Positions 53,183-62,119 of a stretch of DNA of 64,000 nucleotides are shown one piece after another (within the stretch, counting starts at the first letter, position 1; every line of letters begins with the position of its first letter). The stretch covers positions 1 through 64,000 of the forward strand of contig JAJCZZ010000108.1 in the NCBI GenBank assembly GCA_029262115.1, in the 5' to 3' direction. The stretch is from Gemmatimonadota bacterium. Its GTDB lineage: Bacteria > Gemmatimonadota > Gemmatimonadetes > Longimicrobiales > Gaopeijiaceae. Under the pieces are notes generated by a model. The model saw only the letters and a list, made by a program, of their open reading frames with translations. It searched no databases and had not been told where the DNA came from. Both the position numbers and the translations under genes were made by a program.

Positions 53183-53255
53183 GGGGCCATAGCTCAGTTG
53201 GGAGAGCACCTGCTTTGCAAGCAGGGGGTCGCCGGTTCGAGCCCGGCTGGCTCCA
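53183..53255 (+). tRNA. tRNA-Ala (anticodon TGC)
   Basis: The 73-nt cloverleaf has acceptor stem GGGGCCA/TGGCTCC, D arm AGCTCAGTTGGGAGAGC, anticodon stem CCTGC/GCAGG around loop TTTGCAA (TGC at 53216-53218), T arm GCCGGTTCGAGCCCGGC and discriminator A. The 3' CCA is not encoded and must be added. Confidence 0.97.
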
Positions 53256-53321
53256 CTTGTGTACGCGCGTGCCGTTATCGCCACGCGGTGGCTGTGCGGG
53301 GGTAGGCCGTCGCTGATCCCC

Positions 53322-54776
53322 CTACCCCTCCCCCGGGATCTCCACCCGAAACCGAGCCCCACCCTCCGCTCGGTTCGCCGCCTCGACCCGCCCCCCCCAC
53401 CCCTCCACGATGGCGCGGACCACCGACAGCCCCAGTCCGGTGCCGGCGTCCTGCGCCCCCGGCGTACGTGCTCGATCCTTCCGCACGAAGCGGTCGAACA
53501 GTCGCTCGGGATCGTCGTCCAGGCCGGGGCCCGTGTCCTCGACCGTCAGGACCAGTGTCCCGGCATGGGATCCCAGCGTCACTGTCACCTCGCTGCCGAC
53601 GGGTGAGAACTTCAGCGCGTTGTCGACCAGGTTCCAAACGATCCTGGCGAAGCGATCGGTGTCGGGAACGGTGACGCGGACGCGGGACGTGACCGCGGTC
53701 AGCGCGATCTGCCGGTACGCCGCCTGCGGACGAAGCCGTTCGATGACGGTGGAGACGATTTCTCCTGGAGATGCGCGCGCAGCATCCGGGCCCCCCGGCA
53801 CGTGCTGAGCGGCAGCGTCCTCCCCACCACCGGGCCCCACCTCACCCACCGCCTCCGCCCGGGCGATCATCAGTAGGTCTTCGGTGATCCGACCCAGGCG
53901 GAGGATCTCCTCCAGGTTGCTCTCGAGCACGTCCCGGTATTCCTCGGGGGACCGGTCCTTCCTCAGCGCGACTTCGATCTCGCCTCTCAGGGCGGTCAGC
54001 GGTGAGCGTAGTTCGTGGCTGGCGTCGGCGGTGAAGCGCGTCTGAGCCACAAAGGCATCTTGGATTCGCCCGAGCATGGTGTTGAGGACCTCCACCAGAC
54101 GGCGGTACTCCCGACTGTCCGCGTAGGCTTCGATCCGGGTGTCGAGGGAGCCCGCTCCGATGACCTCGGCCTGGTCCATGATCTCGTGCACCGGGCGGAC
54201 GACCCGACCGGCCAGCCACCAACTCCCCAGCGCGGAGGCGACCGCGACCACGACCGACACCAGCGCGAAGAAGAGGCTCAGGCGGCGCACCATCGCGCTA
54301 CGGGCCGTCAGCGGCGCCGCGACCTGGATCACGTGTTGGTCGTGAGCGGGGCCGAAGCGCGCCAGCGAGTAGTAGAGCGAGAGGATGTCGGCCCCGGCGA
54401 AGCGCTGCTCCCTCCAAACGAGATCGCCTGCATGGGACTCTCGCAGCGCGTTGCGATCGAGCGGGAGATCTTCCGTCATGAACTGGCTTCTCAGCAGGCT
54501 CTGCCCTCCCTCGCTCCAAACCTGCGCGTACTGTACGAGGTCCTGGACCGATGCGGCCTCGTCGGGCGTGAGCTCCCACTCGTGGAAGTGCATGGCTCCG
54601 TCCGGGGAGTCCACCACGGAGGCCGCCTGGATCGACGCCACGTTCAGGATGCTTTCACGCAACTCCCGCCCGAGGATGGCTCGGAGGGTCAGGACGCTCG
54701 CGATCGACAGGACGACCGCAGTCACGGTCATCGCCAAGGTGAATCGCAGAGTGAGCTGCGCGCGAAACGACCTCAT
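53322..54776 (-). CDS. HAMP sensor histidine kinase (CusS/CopS-like), orphaned
   Basis: The 484-residue kinase has a first transmembrane helix (residues 12-32), a periplasmic sensor of about 130 residues, a second helix (170-190), HAMP, a HisKA helix with D-A-S-H-E-L-R-S-P-L (phospho-His) and a HATPase domain (N-L-V-D-N-A-L-K-F; D-T-G-P-G-L; G-T-G-L-G-L-S-V-V). This is the OmpR-partner type of heavy-metal sensor. It is divergent from copA, so copper sensing is likely. The ATG at 54776 overlaps, through ATGA, a 39-codon remnant of the response regulator that should precede it; ATG 54788 is an alternative. Confidence 0.9.
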   Translation of the reverse strand: MRSFRAQLTLRFTLAMTVTAVVLSIASVLTLRAILGRELRESILNVASIQAASVVDSPDGAMHFHEWELTPDEAASVQDLVQYAQVWSEGGQSLLRSQFMTEDLPLDRNALRESHAGDLVWREQRFAGADILSLYYSLARFGPAHDQHVIQVAAPLTARSAMVRRLSLFFALVSVVVAVASALGSWWLAGRVVRPVHEIMDQAEVIGAGSLDTRIEAYADSREYRRLVEVLNTMLGRIQDAFVAQTRFTADASHELRSPLTALRGEIEVALRKDRSPEEYRDVLESNLEEILRLGRITEDLLMIARAEAVGEVGPGGGEDAAAQHVPGGPDAARASPGEIVSTVIERLRPQAAYRQIALTAVTSRVRVTVPDTDRFARIVWNLVDNALKFSPVGSEVTVTLGSHAGTLVLTVEDTGPGLDDDPERLFDRFVRKDRARTPGAQDAGTGLGLSVVRAIVEGWGGRVEAANRAEGGARFRVEIPGEG

Positions 54777-54892
54777 GGCGCCCCCCATTCTCGGCAGACC
54801 CACCCGACACGGCGTGCTCGGTGGAGCTGCGGTACACGGCGCACGAGAAAGGCCGTGACCTTCGTGTCTTCGTCGACGACGAGAATACGCAT
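54773..54892 (-). pseudogene. Internally deleted OmpR-family response regulator
   Basis: ATG at 54892 opens M-R-I-L-V-V-D-E-D-T-K-V-T-A-F-L-V, the exact start of an OmpR/PhoB-type receiver (beta 1, acidic pair, helix 1). After about 19 residues it jumps to R-A-R-R-V-G-W-V-C-R-E-W-G-A-P, which matches the C-terminal end of such regulators (T-V-R-G-V-G-Y-x-x-R-E). About 190 residues, including the phospho-acceptor Asp and the DNA-binding helices, are missing. The junction is in frame and the stop still overlaps the kinase ATG (ATGA), as in an intact pair. The 39-residue product cannot act as a regulator. Confidence 0.75.
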
Positions 54893-54994: not shown

Positions 54995-55027
54995 GTTCAT
55001 CCGAGGTTCACCATGTGTTCATCCGCG
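54995..55027. promoter_or_regulatory. Three 11-bp direct repeats, likely binding site of the lost regulator
   Basis: GTTCATCCG (54995), GTTCACCAT (55006) and GTTCATCCG (55017) are spaced exactly 11 bp apart, the pattern bound head-to-tail by OmpR/PhoB-type regulators. They lie in the 237-bp divergent region between the regulator remnant/kinase and copA. Confidence 0.65.
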
Positions 55028-55129: not shown

Positions 55130-57061
55130 ATGGTCGATCCGCGGAACGGACGCCTCCCGCGTCGTGACTTCGTCCGCTACGGCGCCGCAGTCGCCGGTGT
55201 GGCCGGCGTTCAGCAACTGGCCAGTGGCGGGCGCTTCCAGCGGCCGGCCCTTCCACCGGTCCCGGCATCGCCGGGGTACCGGCCGGGGGCCCCGATCCAG
55301 GAAGGGAACGTTCTGAACGGAAGCGACGGGCCGGTCGAACTCCGTATCGGGCGGTCGGAGGCGGTGGTCGACGGCCGGCGCGGTCGGGCCGTCACGATCA
55401 ACGGGACCCTCCCGGGTCCGCTGCTTCGCTTCCGAGAGGGCGACGAAGCTGTGATACATGTGACGAACGAACTGGACGAGGACACCTCGGTTCACTGGCA
55501 CGGCTTGATCCTCGCGAACGGGATGGACGGTGTTCCCAAGGTCAACTTCCCAGGGATCCGACCGGGCGAGACGTTTACCTACCGGTACCCGGTCCGTCAG
55601 TACGGCACGTACTGGTACCACAGCCATTCGGGCCTGCAGGAGCAGATGGGGCACTACGCTCCCCTGGTCATCGACCCGGCCGGCGGAGAGCCGTACGAGT
55701 ACGACCGCGAGCACGTGATCGTGCTGTCCGACTGGATGTTCGAGGATCCGTACCGGGTCTTGGCGCGTCTGAAGAAGCACCCGGACTACTACAACTTCCA
55801 GAAGCGCACGGTCTTCGATTTCTTCCGTGACGTCTTCGACCGGGGCCTGGGTGAGACCGTCGACGATCGGCTGGCGTGGGGTCGGATGCGTATGAACCCG
55901 ACCGACATTTCCGATATCACCGGGGCCGTCTACACCTACCTGTTGAACGGTCGGGGGCCCGAGTCGAACTGGACCGGGCTGTTCGAGCCGGGTGAGCGGG
56001 TCCGGCTCCGCATCGTCAACGCTTCTGCGGCGACGCTGTTCGACCTGCGTATTCCCGGCCTCCCGATGACGGTCGTGCAGGTGAGTGGCCAGCACGTCCA
56101 ACCTGTCGAAACGGACGAGATCCGGATCTCCATTGCCGAGACGTACGACGTGATCGTCGAGCCGCGCGACGAGGCCTACACGCTCTTCGCGGAGACGATC
56201 GATCGGAGCGGCTTCGCTCGTGGTACTCTGGCGACACGGCCGGGGCTCGACGCGCCGGTGCCGGAGCGGCGGGAGCGACCGCTCCTGACGATGGCCGACA
56301 TGGGCATGATGCACATGGTGGGCGGGGAACACGACATGGCCGGCATGGACATGCCGGCCGGCGGCGAGACATCGTCAGGTGCTGAGGTGTCTGCCACCGG
56401 TGACATGACCGTGGGCGCGGACGCGCACGCCGGTCACGATATGGGCGAGACCACGATGCTCCGGGCACCGGGCACACTGCCGGACGAGACGATGCACTCG
56501 GACGACCATCACGGACCGGGGAACGCGGGCGTGGCCATGACGGCCGGCAGTCGCCTTCACGAGCCGGGGCTCGGACTCGGGGACGACGGGTGGCGCGTCC
56601 TGACCTACACACAGCTGCGAGCGCTGGACCATCGCCACGACTTCGCCGCACCGACCCGTGAGATCGAGCTGCACCTGACCGGCAACATGGAGCGTTTCAT
56701 GTGGTCGATCGACGGCGTGGAGTTCTCCGACGCGGAGCCGATCCGTGTGGCGCTGGGCGAACGCTTTCGCCTGATCATGGTGAACGACACCATGATGAAC
56801 CATCCGATGCATCTCCATGGGATGTGGATGGAGCTTGAAAATGGCCATGGCGACGGCATTCCGCGGGTCCACACGGTCAACGTGAAGCCGGCCGAAAAGG
56901 TGTCGCTCCTGTGCACGCCAGACGTGCCCGGTCCGTGGGCCTTTCACTGCCACGTGCTCTATCACATGGACGCAGGCATGTTCAGGGTCTTCGAGGTCGT
57001 GGACGAGGGCGGGGGCATGCACTCGGGCCACGTGGGAACGGACCAGGAGGTCGGCGGGTGA
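55130..57061 (+). CDS. copA: CopA-type multicopper oxidase (copper resistance)
   Basis: This 643-residue periplasmic Cu(I) oxidase starts at ATG 55130, just before a Tat signal (R-L-P-R-R-D-F-V-R-Y-G-A-A-V-A-G). All four copper motifs are present: H122-W-H124-G, H164-S-H166, H558-P-M-H561-L-H563-G and H606-C607-H608-x3-H612-x4-M617 (type 1 Cys with axial Met). A Met/His-rich insert (residues about 385-475: M-G-M-M-H-M, H-D-M-A-G-M-D-M, H-A-G-H-D-M) is the copper-loading region of CopA/PcoA. The copB start overlaps the stop (GTGA). Confidence 0.95.
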   Translation: MVDPRNGRLPRRDFVRYGAAVAGVAGVQQLASGGRFQRPALPPVPASPGYRPGAPIQEGNVLNGSDGPVELRIGRSEAVVDGRRGRAVTINGTLPGPLLRFREGDEAVIHVTNELDEDTSVHWHGLILANGMDGVPKVNFPGIRPGETFTYRYPVRQYGTYWYHSHSGLQEQMGHYAPLVIDPAGGEPYEYDREHVIVLSDWMFEDPYRVLARLKKHPDYYNFQKRTVFDFFRDVFDRGLGETVDDRLAWGRMRMNPTDISDITGAVYTYLLNGRGPESNWTGLFEPGERVRLRIVNASAATLFDLRIPGLPMTVVQVSGQHVQPVETDEIRISIAETYDVIVEPRDEAYTLFAETIDRSGFARGTLATRPGLDAPVPERRERPLLTMADMGMMHMVGGEHDMAGMDMPAGGETSSGAEVSATGDMTVGADAHAGHDMGETTMLRAPGTLPDETMHSDDHHGPGNAGVAMTAGSRLHEPGLGLGDDGWRVLTYTQLRALDHRHDFAAPTREIELHLTGNMERFMWSIDGVEFSDAEPIRVALGERFRLIMVNDTMMNHPMHLHGMWMELENGHGDGIPRVHTVNVKPAEKVSLLCTPDVPGPWAFHCHVLYHMDAGMFRVFEVVDEGGGMHSGHVGTDQEVGG

Positions 57062-57852
57062 CGGGGCGCGGCAGTGGCTCGCGTCGCGGCAAGGGTAGCG
57101 CGCGCCTCCGGCGGTCCGGGGCGGCGCTCGGGGTCCGCGCGTTCAGTCTCGCGCTCCTGACGGCCGGATCCGTGCTTCTGGGACTGAGTGTCACGGATGC
57201 GTCCGCCCAGACGATGGACGATCACACGTGGACGTATGTGGCGTTCGACGAGTTGGAGATCGCTCCGGACGTCGACGAGCGACCCCTCGACTTCGATGTA
57301 TCCGCGTGGGTCGGAGGCGACTATACGCGGATATGGGTCAAGCTGGACGGCGAATACGCAACGGAAGGCGGAGCGTGGGAGGGAGAAGGCCAACTCCTCT
57401 ACAGCCGGCTGGTGTCGCCGTTCTGGGAAGCGCAGGCCGGCGTCGGCCTCCAGATGGCGAACGGGGGAGTCTCGCGGCAGACCCGTGGGCTGTTCGTGCT
57501 CGGGTTGGAGGGACTCGCTCCCTACTGGTTCGAGGTGGAGCCGCAGATCCTCGTGAGTCACGAAGGCGACGTCGCGCTCTCGCTGGAAGCGAGCTACGAA
57601 CTGCTCTTCACCCAGAGGCTCGTTCTGGAGCCGGAGGTCGAGCTCTTCGGTGCGGTCCAGGAGGTCCCGGAATTCGGTATCGGGTCGGGTCTGAACTCGA
57701 CCTCCGTGGCGGGTAGGCTCCGGTACGAATTCGTGAGGGAGTTCGCTCCGTACGTCGGCGTCGTGTGGAGCCGGACGTTCGGGGCGGCCCGCGACTTCGC
57801 CGAGGACACGGGTGGGACCCGCTTCGTGGCGGGACTCCGGCTCTGGTACTGA
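57058..57852 (+). CDS. copB: CopB-type outer membrane copper resistance protein
   Basis: The 264-residue protein begins at GTG 57058, overlapping copA by 4 bp. It has a basic N terminus, a signal peptide (S-L-A-L-L-T-A-G-S-V-L-L-G-L-S-V-T-D-A-S-A-Q) and a beta-barrel of alternating strands typical of CopB/PcoB (D-V-S-A-W-V-G-G-D-Y-T-R-I-W-V-K; Y-S-R-L-V-S-P-F-W-E-A-Q-A-G-V), ending in an aromatic Y. The Met-rich N-terminal linker common in CopB is nearly absent. It probably sequesters or exports copper at the outer membrane. Confidence 0.93.
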   Translation: MTGRGSGSRRGKGSARLRRSGAALGVRAFSLALLTAGSVLLGLSVTDASAQTMDDHTWTYVAFDELEIAPDVDERPLDFDVSAWVGGDYTRIWVKLDGEYATEGGAWEGEGQLLYSRLVSPFWEAQAGVGLQMANGGVSRQTRGLFVLGLEGLAPYWFEVEPQILVSHEGDVALSLEASYELLFTQRLVLEPEVELFGAVQEVPEFGIGSGLNSTSVAGRLRYEFVREFAPYVGVVWSRTFGAARDFAEDTGGTRFVAGLRLWY

Positions 57853-57883
57853 CGACTACTTCAAGATAGGCAGGGAGATTTGC

Positions 57884-58351
57884 ATGCAGGAGCACGACCA
57901 GGGCGGTTCGTACGGCCGCTTCGCTGCGATGATCGGGACGTCCACCGCGATCATGCTCGTGCTCACATATTTGAACAACTACGCGCTGGACCACGTGTTC
58001 TGGAGCGAGACCCGCTTCTACATGGCTCTGATCATGGGGGCCAATATGGCGGTCGTCATGCTTGCGTTCATGCTGAACATGTACGAGGATCGGACGAAGA
58101 ACCTCGCAATTTTCGCTGGGGCCGCGGTCGTGTTCGCCGTGGCACTGTTCCTGGTGCGCAGTCAGACGACCGTCGACGACGTGTCCTGGATGAAGGCCAT
58201 GATTCCCCACCATTCGATCGCGATCCTGACCAGCGAGCGCGCCGAGATCACGGATCCGCGCGTCCGAGAACTCGCCGACGGGATCATCGAGGCCCAGCGC
58301 CGCGAGATCGCCGAGATGAAGGCCCTGATCGAGGATCTCGAAGGGAGCTGA
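57884..58351 (+). CDS. DUF305 membrane protein of the copper operon
   Basis: The 155-residue protein has three predicted transmembrane helices (about residues 15-32, 43-65, 72-90) followed by a DUF305 helical domain with M-I-P-H-H-S-I-A-I-L and a Glu/Arg-rich final helix (E-I-A-E-M-K-A-L-I). DUF305 proteins often accompany copper resistance genes, and the Met/His pattern suggests metal binding. The ATG at 57884 follows GGGAG and lies 31 bp after copB, so it is part of the same transcript. Confidence 0.88.
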   Translation: MQEHDQGGSYGRFAAMIGTSTAIMLVLTYLNNYALDHVFWSETRFYMALIMGANMAVVMLAFMLNMYEDRTKNLAIFAGAAVVFAVALFLVRSQTTVDDVSWMKAMIPHHSIAILTSERAEITDPRVRELADGIIEAQRREIAEMKALIEDLEGS

Positions 58352-58460
58352 CCGAGCACCTTTCTTGCACGGCCCGCCCGGATGTGGGAGGCTTGGACGC
58401 GTTCCATCCGTGCCGACGTCGTCGTCGGGTAGGCAGCTCCCCAGTCAGGAGACAGGACCG

Positions 58461-59675
58461 ATGGGCCAGGCGGACGGTACATCCCCGGACGCGGAGCCGG
58501 CGGGGCGAGCAACGCGGGTGGAGCGTCAGCGGAGCCCGGACCTCCTCCGCGAGCGGGTGGCTCGCACCGAGGCGGAGGCCGCACAGGCTGCTGCGCTGGA
58601 GGAAACCGAGCGCCGGTATCGCTTCCTCATCGACTCAATACCCCAGCAGGTGTGGACGGGGCTGCCGGACGGCTCGCTTGACTTCGTCAACGAAAAGGTG
58701 GTCGAGTACTTCGAACGTCCGGCCGGGGCCATCATCGGGGACGGGTGGCAGGACGTGATCCACCCAGACGACCTTCCCGGCGTGGTCGAGCGCTGGACGC
58801 ACTCGCTCACCACCGGCGACGACTACGAAGTGGAGTTCCGCTTGCTTCGGCCCACCGGTGCGTACCGATGGCACCTGGGCCGAGCGCAGGCGCAGCGAGA
58901 TCCGGACGGGCAGATCGTTCGGTGGTTTGGGACCAATACCGATCTCCACGACTTGAAGGAGGCGGAGGCCGGGCGGGATCGGATGCACCGCGAGCTCACC
59001 CGCAGCAATGAGGACCTGGATCGGTTCGCCTACGTGGCCTCACACGACCTCAAAGCGCCTCTTCGTGGCATCGCCAACCTGGCGGCGTGGATCCGAACCG
59101 ACCTGGGCGATACCGCTTCGGAGGAGACGGCCCACCATCTGGACCTCCTCGAGGGACGGTGCCAGCGACTGGAAGGGCTTATCGACGGGCTGCTGCATTA
59201 CTCCAGAGCGGGTCGAGCGGGACGCTCGGTGGAACCGGTCGACGGGGCGGCACTGCTCCGGGATGTCATCGACCTGCTGGACACGGGGTCGGGTGCGCAG
59301 GTCGAGATCGACGGGGAGTTGCCCAACTTCCGCGTAGAAAAAGCGTTGCTGGAGCAGGTGTTCCTGAACCTGATCTCGAATGCGATCCAGTACAGCGACA
59401 AGGAAACGCCGGTGATTCGCGTGGCAGCGCGCCCCGCGGAGCGGACCGGATTCCACGAGTTCTCGGTGGCTGACGATGGCCCGGGAATCGCCGAGCGCTA
59501 TCACGACCGTATCTGGGAGATCTTCCAGACGCTGCAGTCGCGCGACAAGGTAGAAAGCACTGGAATCGGACTTGCAGTAGTCAAGAAGATCGTCGAGGCC
59601 CAGGGTGGCGAGGTCGGCATCGAGTCCGAGGAGGGCGCGGGTGCGACGTTTCGCTTCACCTGGCCAACGACCTGA
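58461..59675 (+). CDS. PAS sensor histidine kinase (phytochrome-type kinase core)
   Basis: This soluble 404-residue kinase has a disordered N terminus with a short coiled coil, a PAS/PAC domain (about residues 50-165: Q-Q-V-W-T-G-L-P-D-G-S-L ... W-F-G-T-N-T-D-I/L-H) and a HisKA helix with V-A-S-H-D-L-K-A-P-L-R-G. The HATPase domain carries N-L-I-S-N-A-I-Q-Y, D-D-G-P-G-I and G-I-G-L-A-V-V. The S-H-D-L-K-A-P-L form is typical of kinases paired with Rcp1-like receivers, and exactly such a receiver is encoded 39 bp downstream. No bilin-binding domain is present. Confidence 0.9.
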   Translation: MGQADGTSPDAEPAGRATRVERQRSPDLLRERVARTEAEAAQAAALEETERRYRFLIDSIPQQVWTGLPDGSLDFVNEKVVEYFERPAGAIIGDGWQDVIHPDDLPGVVERWTHSLTTGDDYEVEFRLLRPTGAYRWHLGRAQAQRDPDGQIVRWFGTNTDLHDLKEAEAGRDRMHRELTRSNEDLDRFAYVASHDLKAPLRGIANLAAWIRTDLGDTASEETAHHLDLLEGRCQRLEGLIDGLLHYSRAGRAGRSVEPVDGAALLRDVIDLLDTGSGAQVEIDGELPNFRVEKALLEQVFLNLISNAIQYSDKETPVIRVAARPAERTGFHEFSVADDGPGIAERYHDRIWEIFQTLQSRDKVESTGIGLAVVKKIVEAQGGEVGIESEEGAGATFRFTWPTT

Positions 59676-59714
59676 CCACGTGATCACCCGGCCCAGGCTC
59701 AGGGGGATGGCACG

Positions 59715-60134
59715 ATGGACGACAAGAACCGGTTGAAAATCCTACTCGTCGAGGATGACGAGGTCGATGTCATGACCGTCCGTCGAGCGTTTGCCGAGGT
59801 CCAGTTCGGGAACCCGATCCACCATGCGGAGGACGGGGTCGCGGCGCTGGAAAAGCTGCGTTCGGGAGAGGTCCCCCGCGACAAACTGCTGGTACTGCTC
59901 GACCTCAACATGCCGAGAATGAACGGCATCGAGTTCCTCCGCGAGATCCGCGCCGATGACTCCCTCCACTGGCTACCCGTAGTGGTTCTCACGACATCCG
60001 ACCACGAACGCGACCGTGTCGAGGCGTTCGGCCTTAACGTGGCGGGGTATCTCGTCAAGCCGGTCACCTTCGAGGGCTTCATTCGTCTGATTTCCGCGTT
60101 CAAAAAGTATTGGACGTATGTGGAGATGCCGTGA
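59715..60134 (+). CDS. Rcp1-like single-domain response regulator
   Basis: The 139-residue receiver has an acidic triad region I-L-L-V-E-D-D-E-V-D, phospho-acceptor Asp in V-L-L-D-L-N-M-P-R-M-N-G, Thr/Ser in V-V-L-T-T-S-D and Lys in G-Y-L-V-K-P-V. The L-D-L-N-M-P-R-M-N-G motif and size match Rcp1. It is encoded between two kinases and may shuttle phosphate between them. The stop overlaps the next start by 4 bp (GTGA). Confidence 0.92.
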   Translation: MDDKNRLKILLVEDDEVDVMTVRRAFAEVQFGNPIHHAEDGVAALEKLRSGEVPRDKLLVLLDLNMPRMNGIEFLREIRADDSLHWLPVVVLTTSDHERDRVEAFGLNVAGYLVKPVTFEGFIRLISAFKKYWTYVEMP

Positions 60135-62119
60135 GTCCCGACCTTCTTACGAAGCCCTGGAAGATCCTCGTGGTCGACGACGACGAGGTCGATCGGCTGG
60201 TCGTGCGTCGGGCGCTGAAGCAGGCGGACGTGTCCGTCGACGTGCACGAGTCCGAAGATGTGGCCTCAGCGACCCAGGCCATCCGGGAGGGCGACTTCGA
60301 CTGCGCCTTGGTGGACTACCACCTCCCGGACGGAGACGGGCGGGACATCCTCGCGGTCATCCGCCGGAACGGGCACCGCCTCCCGGTGGTCATGGTCACC
60401 GGACATGGTGACAACTCGCGTGCGATCGAGTTGATGAAGGAGGGCGCCTACGACTATCTGACCAAGGGAAGCTTCGAGTCGAAGGAGTTGATCCGCACCA
60501 TCCACTATGCCATGAGCGCGCACCGAGCCCAAATGCGAGAGCGCGAGAACGCTGCTTTGCACCGGGCTCTGGCGGAGGCCGGGGAGCGGTTCGGTGGCAC
60601 GCTGGACTACCGTGCGACCGTCAACGCCGTGGTCGACTTGTTCGTGCCGCACTATGCGGATTCTTGCCATATCCAGGCTGCATCGGACGTGCCGGGTGGC
60701 GGATCCCAGCCGGGAGCGTGCCGGACGCACGACGCCGAGTCGGGCGACGCCCTTGGAGGCGAGCATGTTTTCGAGCGTGATCTTTCCGCGAGTGGGCGGG
60801 AACTCGGCCGGCTCCGTCTCGAGCGGAGGGAACCGCGAGGAGCGTTCTCGACCGAGGAGGTGGATCTCATCTGCCACCTGTCGGACCGCGCTGCCGCCGC
60901 GCTGGACAGCGCCAGACTCTTCGGCGACCTGCACGACGAGTCGGCGGTTGTGGCCGCCCTCAATCGCGTGGGACGGGCGCTCGCGGGAACGCTCGACCCC
61001 TCAAAGATTGCCGAGACCGTGGTTCGGGAGGGCATGCAGCTGACGGGCGCTTCCGTGGGCGCTCTTTATCAGCCAGCGGATCCAGGGGGGCGACCGGGGG
61101 TGTTCTTTCGCGCCGGGTCCGAGCACGACACGTCGTCCGATGCCATGCCGCCCGATGGGGCGGGCGCACGTTGGCTCAGCGCGGTCGAAGGGGCCCGTTC
61201 CGCGGTGAGGTACGGCGCGGACGATCTCGACCACCCGTTCGCGAGCGGAGATGCGCTCGGCAGCTATCTCGCTGTCCCCGTGGCGACTCACGAAGGGGAG
61301 TGCGCGGCCGGTCTGTTCTTCGGACACCCCGACCCGGGCACCTTTCGCGACCGGGCGCGCACGCTTGCGGAAGGGATCGCCGCTTGGGCGGGCGTGGCCC
61401 TGGGGAACGCAGAGTTGTTCCGCGAAGCCCGGGCTGCGGTGCAAGCCCGCGACGAGGTCATCGGTATCGTTTCTCATGACCTCCGGAACCCACTCAACGC
61501 CATCCTGTTCACTACGGCCATGCTGCTCGACATGGACCTCGATCCAGAGGTCCGACGCGAGCAGTTGGGGCGCATTCGGCGCTCCGGTACTCGCATGAAC
61601 CGCCTGATTCAGGACCTGCTGGACGTGACCCGCATCGAGGCGGGCGGGCTTTCCGTCGACTTGGATCGCGTTGCGCTGGCGGATGTGCTGGTGGAGACGC
61701 AGGAGATGATGGTCCCTCTGGCTGACGAGCGGGGCTCGACCCTGGTCGTGGACCTACCCGACGATGACGTCGACGCCTTCCTGGATCGTGAACGGGTGGT
61801 CCAGCTTTTCGGCAACCTCATCGGGAACTCCCTCAAGTTCACCCCGGGCGGGGGTGAGGTTCGGTTCGGTGGTCGCAGGATCGACGACCGGGTTGAACTC
61901 TTCGTGTCCGACAACGGCCCAGGCATCCCCTCGGACCAGATCCACAATCTGTTCGATCGCTTCTGGCAGGGAACGGAACGTCGAAAGGAAGGCGCGGGAC
62001 TCGGCCTGCCGATCTGCAAAGGCATTGCGGAGGCGCACGGCGGTTCGATCGACGTCGACACGTCCCCCGCCGGCACGACGTTCACGGTCCGGATGCCCGT
62101 GCGTCCGCGGGGCGTGTAG
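60131..62119 (+). CDS. Hybrid sensor kinase: REC-GAF-GAF-HisKA-HATPase
   Basis: GTG 60131 starts a 662-residue soluble protein. An N-terminal receiver (I-L-V-V-D-D-D-E-V-D; phospho-Asp in A-L-V-D-Y-H-L-P-D-G; Lys in Y-L-T-K-G-S) is followed by two GAF-like domains (about 150-285 and 290-435), a HisKA helix (V-S-H-D-L-R-N-P-L-N-A) and a HATPase domain (N-L-I-G-N-S-L-K-F; D-N-G-P-G-I; G-A-G-L-G-L-P-I-C). A receiver at the N terminus means it is controlled by another kinase, most simply the one two genes upstream. The output target is not encoded here. Confidence 0.9.
   Translation: MSPDLLTKPWKILVVDDDEVDRLVVRRALKQADVSVDVHESEDVASATQAIREGDFDCALVDYHLPDGDGRDILAVIRRNGHRLPVVMVTGHGDNSRAIELMKEGAYDYLTKGSFESKELIRTIHYAMSAHRAQMRERENAALHRALAEAGERFGGTLDYRATVNAVVDLFVPHYADSCHIQAASDVPGGGSQPGACRTHDAESGDALGGEHVFERDLSASGRELGRLRLERREPRGAFSTEEVDLICHLSDRAAAALDSARLFGDLHDESAVVAALNRVGRALAGTLDPSKIAETVVREGMQLTGASVGALYQPADPGGRPGVFFRAGSEHDTSSDAMPPDGAGARWLSAVEGARSAVRYGADDLDHPFASGDALGSYLAVPVATHEGECAAGLFFGHPDPGTFRDRARTLAEGIAAWAGVALGNAELFREARAAVQARDEVIGIVSHDLRNPLNAILFTTAMLLDMDLDPEVRREQLGRIRRSGTRMNRLIQDLLDVTRIEAGGLSVDLDRVALADVLVETQEMMVPLADERGSTLVVDLPDDDVDAFLDRERVVQLFGNLIGNSLKFTPGGGEVRFGGRRIDDRVELFVSDNGPGIPSDQIHNLFDRFWQGTERRKEGAGLGLPICKGIAEAHGGSIDVDTSPAGTTFTVRMPVRPRGV

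Follow-up and report, generated by a model that had tools for sequence, protein, structure and literature searches.

A copper-type sensor kinase beside a decayed regulator, and a candidate partner regulator on another contig, in a Gemmatimonadota genome

The copA locus and its regulator remnant

The window analysed here is a stretch of 64,000 nucleotides from one contig (C108) of a Gemmatimonadota genome, a metagenome-assembled genome (MAG) of 110 contigs with an estimated contamination of 2.7%. Towards its 3′ end lie a sensor kinase gene and, divergent from it, a copper gene, together with the following features.

53322 to 54776, minus strand: sensor histidine kinase, CusS/CopS-like and intact, with HAMP, HisKA and HATPase_c domains and N and G boxes
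54773 to 54892, minus strand: 39-codon remnant of a CusR/CopR-type response regulator, recognised by a profile test and by alignment to orthologues
54780 to 54786 (approximate), minus strand: G-run just 5′ of the kinase ATG (TGGGGGGCGCC-ATG), Shine-Dalgarno-like, with a pairing energy of -9.3 kcal/mol with the anti-Shine-Dalgarno sequence
54996 to 55022, plus strand: triple direct repeat TTCAT-N6-TTCAC-N6-TTCAT with 11-bp spacing, a putative operator between the remnant and kinase on one side and copA on the other
55130 to 57061, plus strand: copA-type multicopper oxidase, scoring above cut-off for TIGR01480; the gene diverges from the kinase and has the operator upstream

The kinase is intact, as an earlier note on this DNA had proposed: the HAMP domain, a HisKA domain with its phospho-acceptor His and a HATPase_c domain with N and G boxes are all present, and the protein retains both the phospho-acceptor motif SHELRSP and a sensor motif, MHFHEWELTP, that is conserved among its orthologues. 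In CopS, the periplasmic copper-binding residues are His41, Phe42 and His140 (PMC7763554). The best NCBIfam match of the kinase is CusS/CopS (TIGR01386), but because its score of 238.2 bits falls below the curated cut-off of 292.6, we refer to it only as CusS/CopS-like. It departs from the consensus at five of 85 invariant columns, the second highest count of 27 kinases (range 0–8); these changes fit a functional protein, yet could be early relaxation.

A tRNA-Ala (TGC) gene lies at 53183–53256 of the window, about 65 bp past the 3′ end of the kinase; the idea of an island at this tRNA was not supported, as a search of the rest of the contig for its sequence (15 nt or longer) found no further copy. 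A scan of the kinase-to-copA interval for sigma-70 promoters and terminators found none. On the other side of the remnant, the copper genes that the earlier note called complete are copA, a DUF305/CopM-like gene and others; cusCBA and copCD lie on another contig. The DUF305/CopM-like gene (57812–58351, near copA) encodes a membrane protein with a terminal DUF305/CopM-like metal-binding segment, and the copper genes are followed on the plus strand, at 58365–62119, by three consecutive genes, which encode a PAS histidine kinase, a single-domain receiver and a protein combining receiver and kinase.

The 39-codon open reading frame (ORF) previously reported upstream of the kinase was confirmed at 54773–54892 on the minus strand (MRILVVDEDTKVTAFLVRRVPQLHRARRVGWVCREWGAP), where its stop (TGA) and the kinase start (ATG) overlap in the sequence ATGA. 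It joins, in frame, about 20 N-terminal and about 19 C-terminal codons of an OmpR-type (CusR/CopR-like) regulator, with about 188 codons absent. An in-frame internal deletion of such a regulator had been suggested on inspection, and this reading was borne out by scoring against a profile of 27–28 orthologous regulators, in which head and tail both exceeded all 20,000 shuffles (z 6.9 and 5.0), and by the regulator of the closest relative, G048, whose tail aligns codon for codon and in exact register with the last 20 codons of the remnant. By these comparisons, descent from a regulator is beyond chance. The two parts are nevertheless far from any working regulator, scoring 22 against 46 for the lowest real orthologue (head) and 4 against 33 (tail), and 8 of 16 near-invariant residues are altered. 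Searches of the 39-codon ORF against Pfam and NCBIfam returned no match, and it does not possess the receiver with phospho-acceptor Asp and the winged-helix DNA-binding domain that define the OmpR/PhoB-type family; it is a pseudogene remnant that stands outside that family.

The earlier note had taken the kept frame and overlap as signs of selection, and had offered as one option that the mini-ORF is kept only for translation of the kinase. As a selected leader, it would bring ribosomes to the ATGA, where they would reinitiate on the kinase; the retention of both the overlap and the open frame fits this idea, as does the presence of the overlap in the closest relatives. That same presence, however, points to inheritance: regulator and kinase overlap by 1–4 nt in most of 27 orthologous pairs from the same family, the closest relatives have an ATGA or GTGA overlap and G048 shares the ATGA itself, so that by this comparison the overlap is ancestral. 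Nor does the open frame say much, because neutral simulations retained a stop-free frame of this size in about half of cases or more (48–83%), and a deletion falls in frame by chance in a third. The peptide is degraded, and the start of the remnant has no Shine-Dalgarno sequence (0.1 kcal/mol), whereas the kinase has its own G-run, situated within the remnant's tail, whose pairing (-9.3 kcal/mol, against -4 to -6 in the nearest relatives) is among the stronger of the set. We therefore regard a selected leader as improbable, and the note's case for selection is not supported; the 39-codon ORF looks like an old decayed stump rather than a peptide under selection or the product of an assembly collapse.

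Orthologous loci and an unlinked regulator

A search of 121 genomes of the same GTDB family identified 27 kinase orthologues, including a second pair in G105 and a fragmented kinase in G044. In the comparison with relatives' loci that had been proposed earlier, a regulator lies directly upstream of the kinase in 27 of 27 cases, and is full-length in all except G084, where it is cut by a contig end. The order in many relatives is regulator-kinase-cusC-cusB-cusA, and in two (G087 and G036) it is regulator-kinase-copD-copC. Outside the genome under study, every regulator of the group found in the family search adjoins a kinase, a kinase fragment or a contig edge. Family genomes carry one such regulator, except G105, which has two, each with its kinase; the two complete regulator-kinase pairs there (L107, L117) show that duplication or a second acquisition of the pair does happen within the family. 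In G110:C4 (L176 1501–2776) the regulator is intact, while the kinase-like sequence ends after about 100 codons and joins the end of an apparent RND metal-efflux protein, which points to a large deletion over kinase-cusC-cusB-cusA and hence an independent kinase loss.

The earlier note had raised the possibility that the kinase signals to another regulator and had called for a search of the genome for an orphan of the OmpR type. That search found one: a full-length regulator on contig C72 (C72:56170–56871), which shares 81% identity with that of G048 (42% for the second-best hit), with both OmpR/PhoB-type domains (PF00072, 97 bits; PF00486, 97 bits) and none of 82 invariant columns broken. Against TIGR01387 it scores 230, below the NCBIfam cut-off of 279. 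The genome encodes five OmpR-type regulators (Response_reg plus Trans_reg_C), and this is the sole one without a linked kinase, since three of the other four have kinase sequence within about 250 bp and the fourth, on C103, has it about 2.4 kb downstream. On its 3′ side lie copD and copC on the opposite strand, followed by cusC, cusB and cusA, but no kinase. The locus is collinear with that of G087 from the regulator into copD; the kinase interval, which measures 1446 bp in G087, is reduced to 94 bp in C72, and no kinase-like sequence was recognised within those 94 bp. From the lengths of the two contigs and their positions on them, the C72 regulator and the C108 kinase are at least 82 kb apart.

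Phylogenetic analysis placed the two proteins in matching positions, sister to G043/G048: the regulator tree resolved as (C72,(G043,(G048,G044))), with support of 97/93, and the kinase tree as (C108,(G048,G043)), with support of 96/93, G044 being in the regulator tree only. In addition, the identities of the C72 regulator and the C108 kinase to 25 paired genomes followed the regression of true pairs (all |z| <= 2.04), so that mirror trees and identity line both give the pattern of co-inheritance expected of a cognate kinase and regulator. The C108 kinase probably signals to this unlinked orthologue, and the earlier note's idea of another regulator is in essence correct. One residue hints at a less simple history: at position 6 the remnant has V, where A is found in the C72 regulator and its closest relatives, so that the vanished copy of the regulator may derive from a lineage that was somewhat different.

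A candidate operator shared across contigs

Regulators of the OmpR/PhoB type bind triple repeats with 11-bp spacing of the kind found upstream of copA. The consensus array, TTMAY-N6-TTCAY-N6-TTCAY, precedes the regulator in many relatives and also lies 5′ of copA in G001, G048, G043, G088 and G071; the sole near-full-length copA without it is that of G046, a genome without such a regulator. Across the 121 genomes, the exact pattern occurs in 23 of 29 with the regulator and in 8 of 92 without it (Fisher p about 7e-13, a value that overstates independence because operator presence is correlated with phylogeny).

Within the genome under study, allowing at most one mismatch, we found nine sites, compared with none for a reversed control. 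Seven of the nine, on C72, C108 and C37, have copper or metal-region genes as neighbours: copA, copC, cusC, a Metal_resist-like gene, a gene for a small, His-rich membrane-like protein from which an FAD-oxidoreductase gene diverges and, on C37, a copC-copD fusion.

G001, which belongs to the same genus, retains copA with the operator (C169:3618–3644, L219). In its 89%-complete assembly, neither such a kinase nor such a regulator was found, nor a close cusA (best 36%), and for this reason G001 does not date the separation of the pair. Two operator matches in G098:C116 are exact 27-mers of G044:C631, though the two genomes are placed in different genera; a binning mix-up and transfer of a copper island are both possible.

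A proposed reciprocal loss and the alternatives

From the remnant, the intact partner genes, the mirror-image deletion, the matching tree positions and the shared operators, we infer a common history, which we consider likely: a duplicated regulator-kinase pair would have been resolved by reciprocal loss, its two halves now acting in trans. The ancestral order would have been a regulator-kinase pair with copper genes (copD/copC or cusCBA) after it, and two copies of the pair would have arisen in the lineage, presumably by duplication. At the home locus, on C72, the kinase would then have been deleted while the regulator stayed; at the copA locus, in whichever order the losses came, the regulator would have been cut down to its 39-codon stump and the kinase kept. 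The C108 kinase, predicted to sense metal in the periplasm, would phosphorylate the C72 regulator in trans, and the latter would bind the triple repeat before copA, copC, cusC and further metal genes, spread over three contigs. It is a more tentative and rather doubtful step to propose that the copper operon as such was duplicated, with complementary deletions leaving the sensor beside copA and the regulator with the cus genes, at least 82 kb off, and that the tail of the decayed regulator became a ribosome-binding site, freeing the kinase from translational coupling.

Another kinase could be driving the C72 regulator, as the genome has many. In its stronger form, this alternative holds that the C108 kinase is a dying orphan without a partner and that the C72 regulator answers to a different kinase or to none; its five broken invariant columns, and the persistence of the G110 regulator without an intact kinase of the same type, are what one might then expect. 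Against this, the sensor motif, phospho-acceptor and ATP-binding boxes of the kinase are intact, as is the copA operator, and the kinase and the C72 regulator co-vary as a pair, which together make a dying orphan unlikely. A contaminating C72 from a related organism, with the two halves in different cells, could be imagined given the 2.7% contamination of the bin, but we judge it very unlikely: the 4-mer profiles of C72 and C108 are similar (0.93–0.97), matching about as well as or better than those of other contigs in the bin, the same operator is present on C72, C108 and C37, and the contaminant would itself have to lack a kinase beside its regulator. Finally, although the contig comes from a MAG, a full-length regulator hidden at the remnant locus by misassembly is least probable of all, because a collapse would have left the invariant residues of the flanking head and tail unaltered, and because an intact regulator lies separately on C72 in a family whose genomes (G105 with its two complete pairs apart) have only one.

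The proposed reciprocal loss can be set against known systems. As in CusRS/CopRS (TIGR01387/TIGR01386), which are the best-matching subfamilies, the neighbours include copA, copC, copD and cusCBA, and the pair is adjacent in relatives. Here, by contrast, both proteins score under the NCBIfam cut-offs (230 vs 279 and 238 vs 293), the pair is unlinked, the putative operator is a triple 11-bp direct repeat and the sensor carries its MHFHEWELTP motif. Kinases and regulators are usually co-transcribed, and unlinked partners normally need experiment to find. In this genome, scars, syntenic relatives and an operator make both the separation of a pair and the matching of an orphan kinase to an orphan regulator readable from sequence and testable, and a kinase that seems to lack a regulator is not necessarily dead or engaged in cross-talk.

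A literature search for such a split returned no report of one, only examples of orphan regulators and general copper papers. Orphan regulators and unlinked partners are already known; the unusual feature here is that a single genome lets one read both complementary deletions, the stump, the synteny of relatives and the operator code. G110, of the same family, likewise lost its kinase and kept its regulator, independently, but no second kinase locus was found in it at E <= 1e-50. In Streptococcus mutans, CovR is an orphan regulator without CovS (PMC3105014), and the C72 regulator resembles it in being kept without an adjacent kinase; unlike that case, the kinase here survives at a second locus with a regulator stump of its own, and both deletions are visible.
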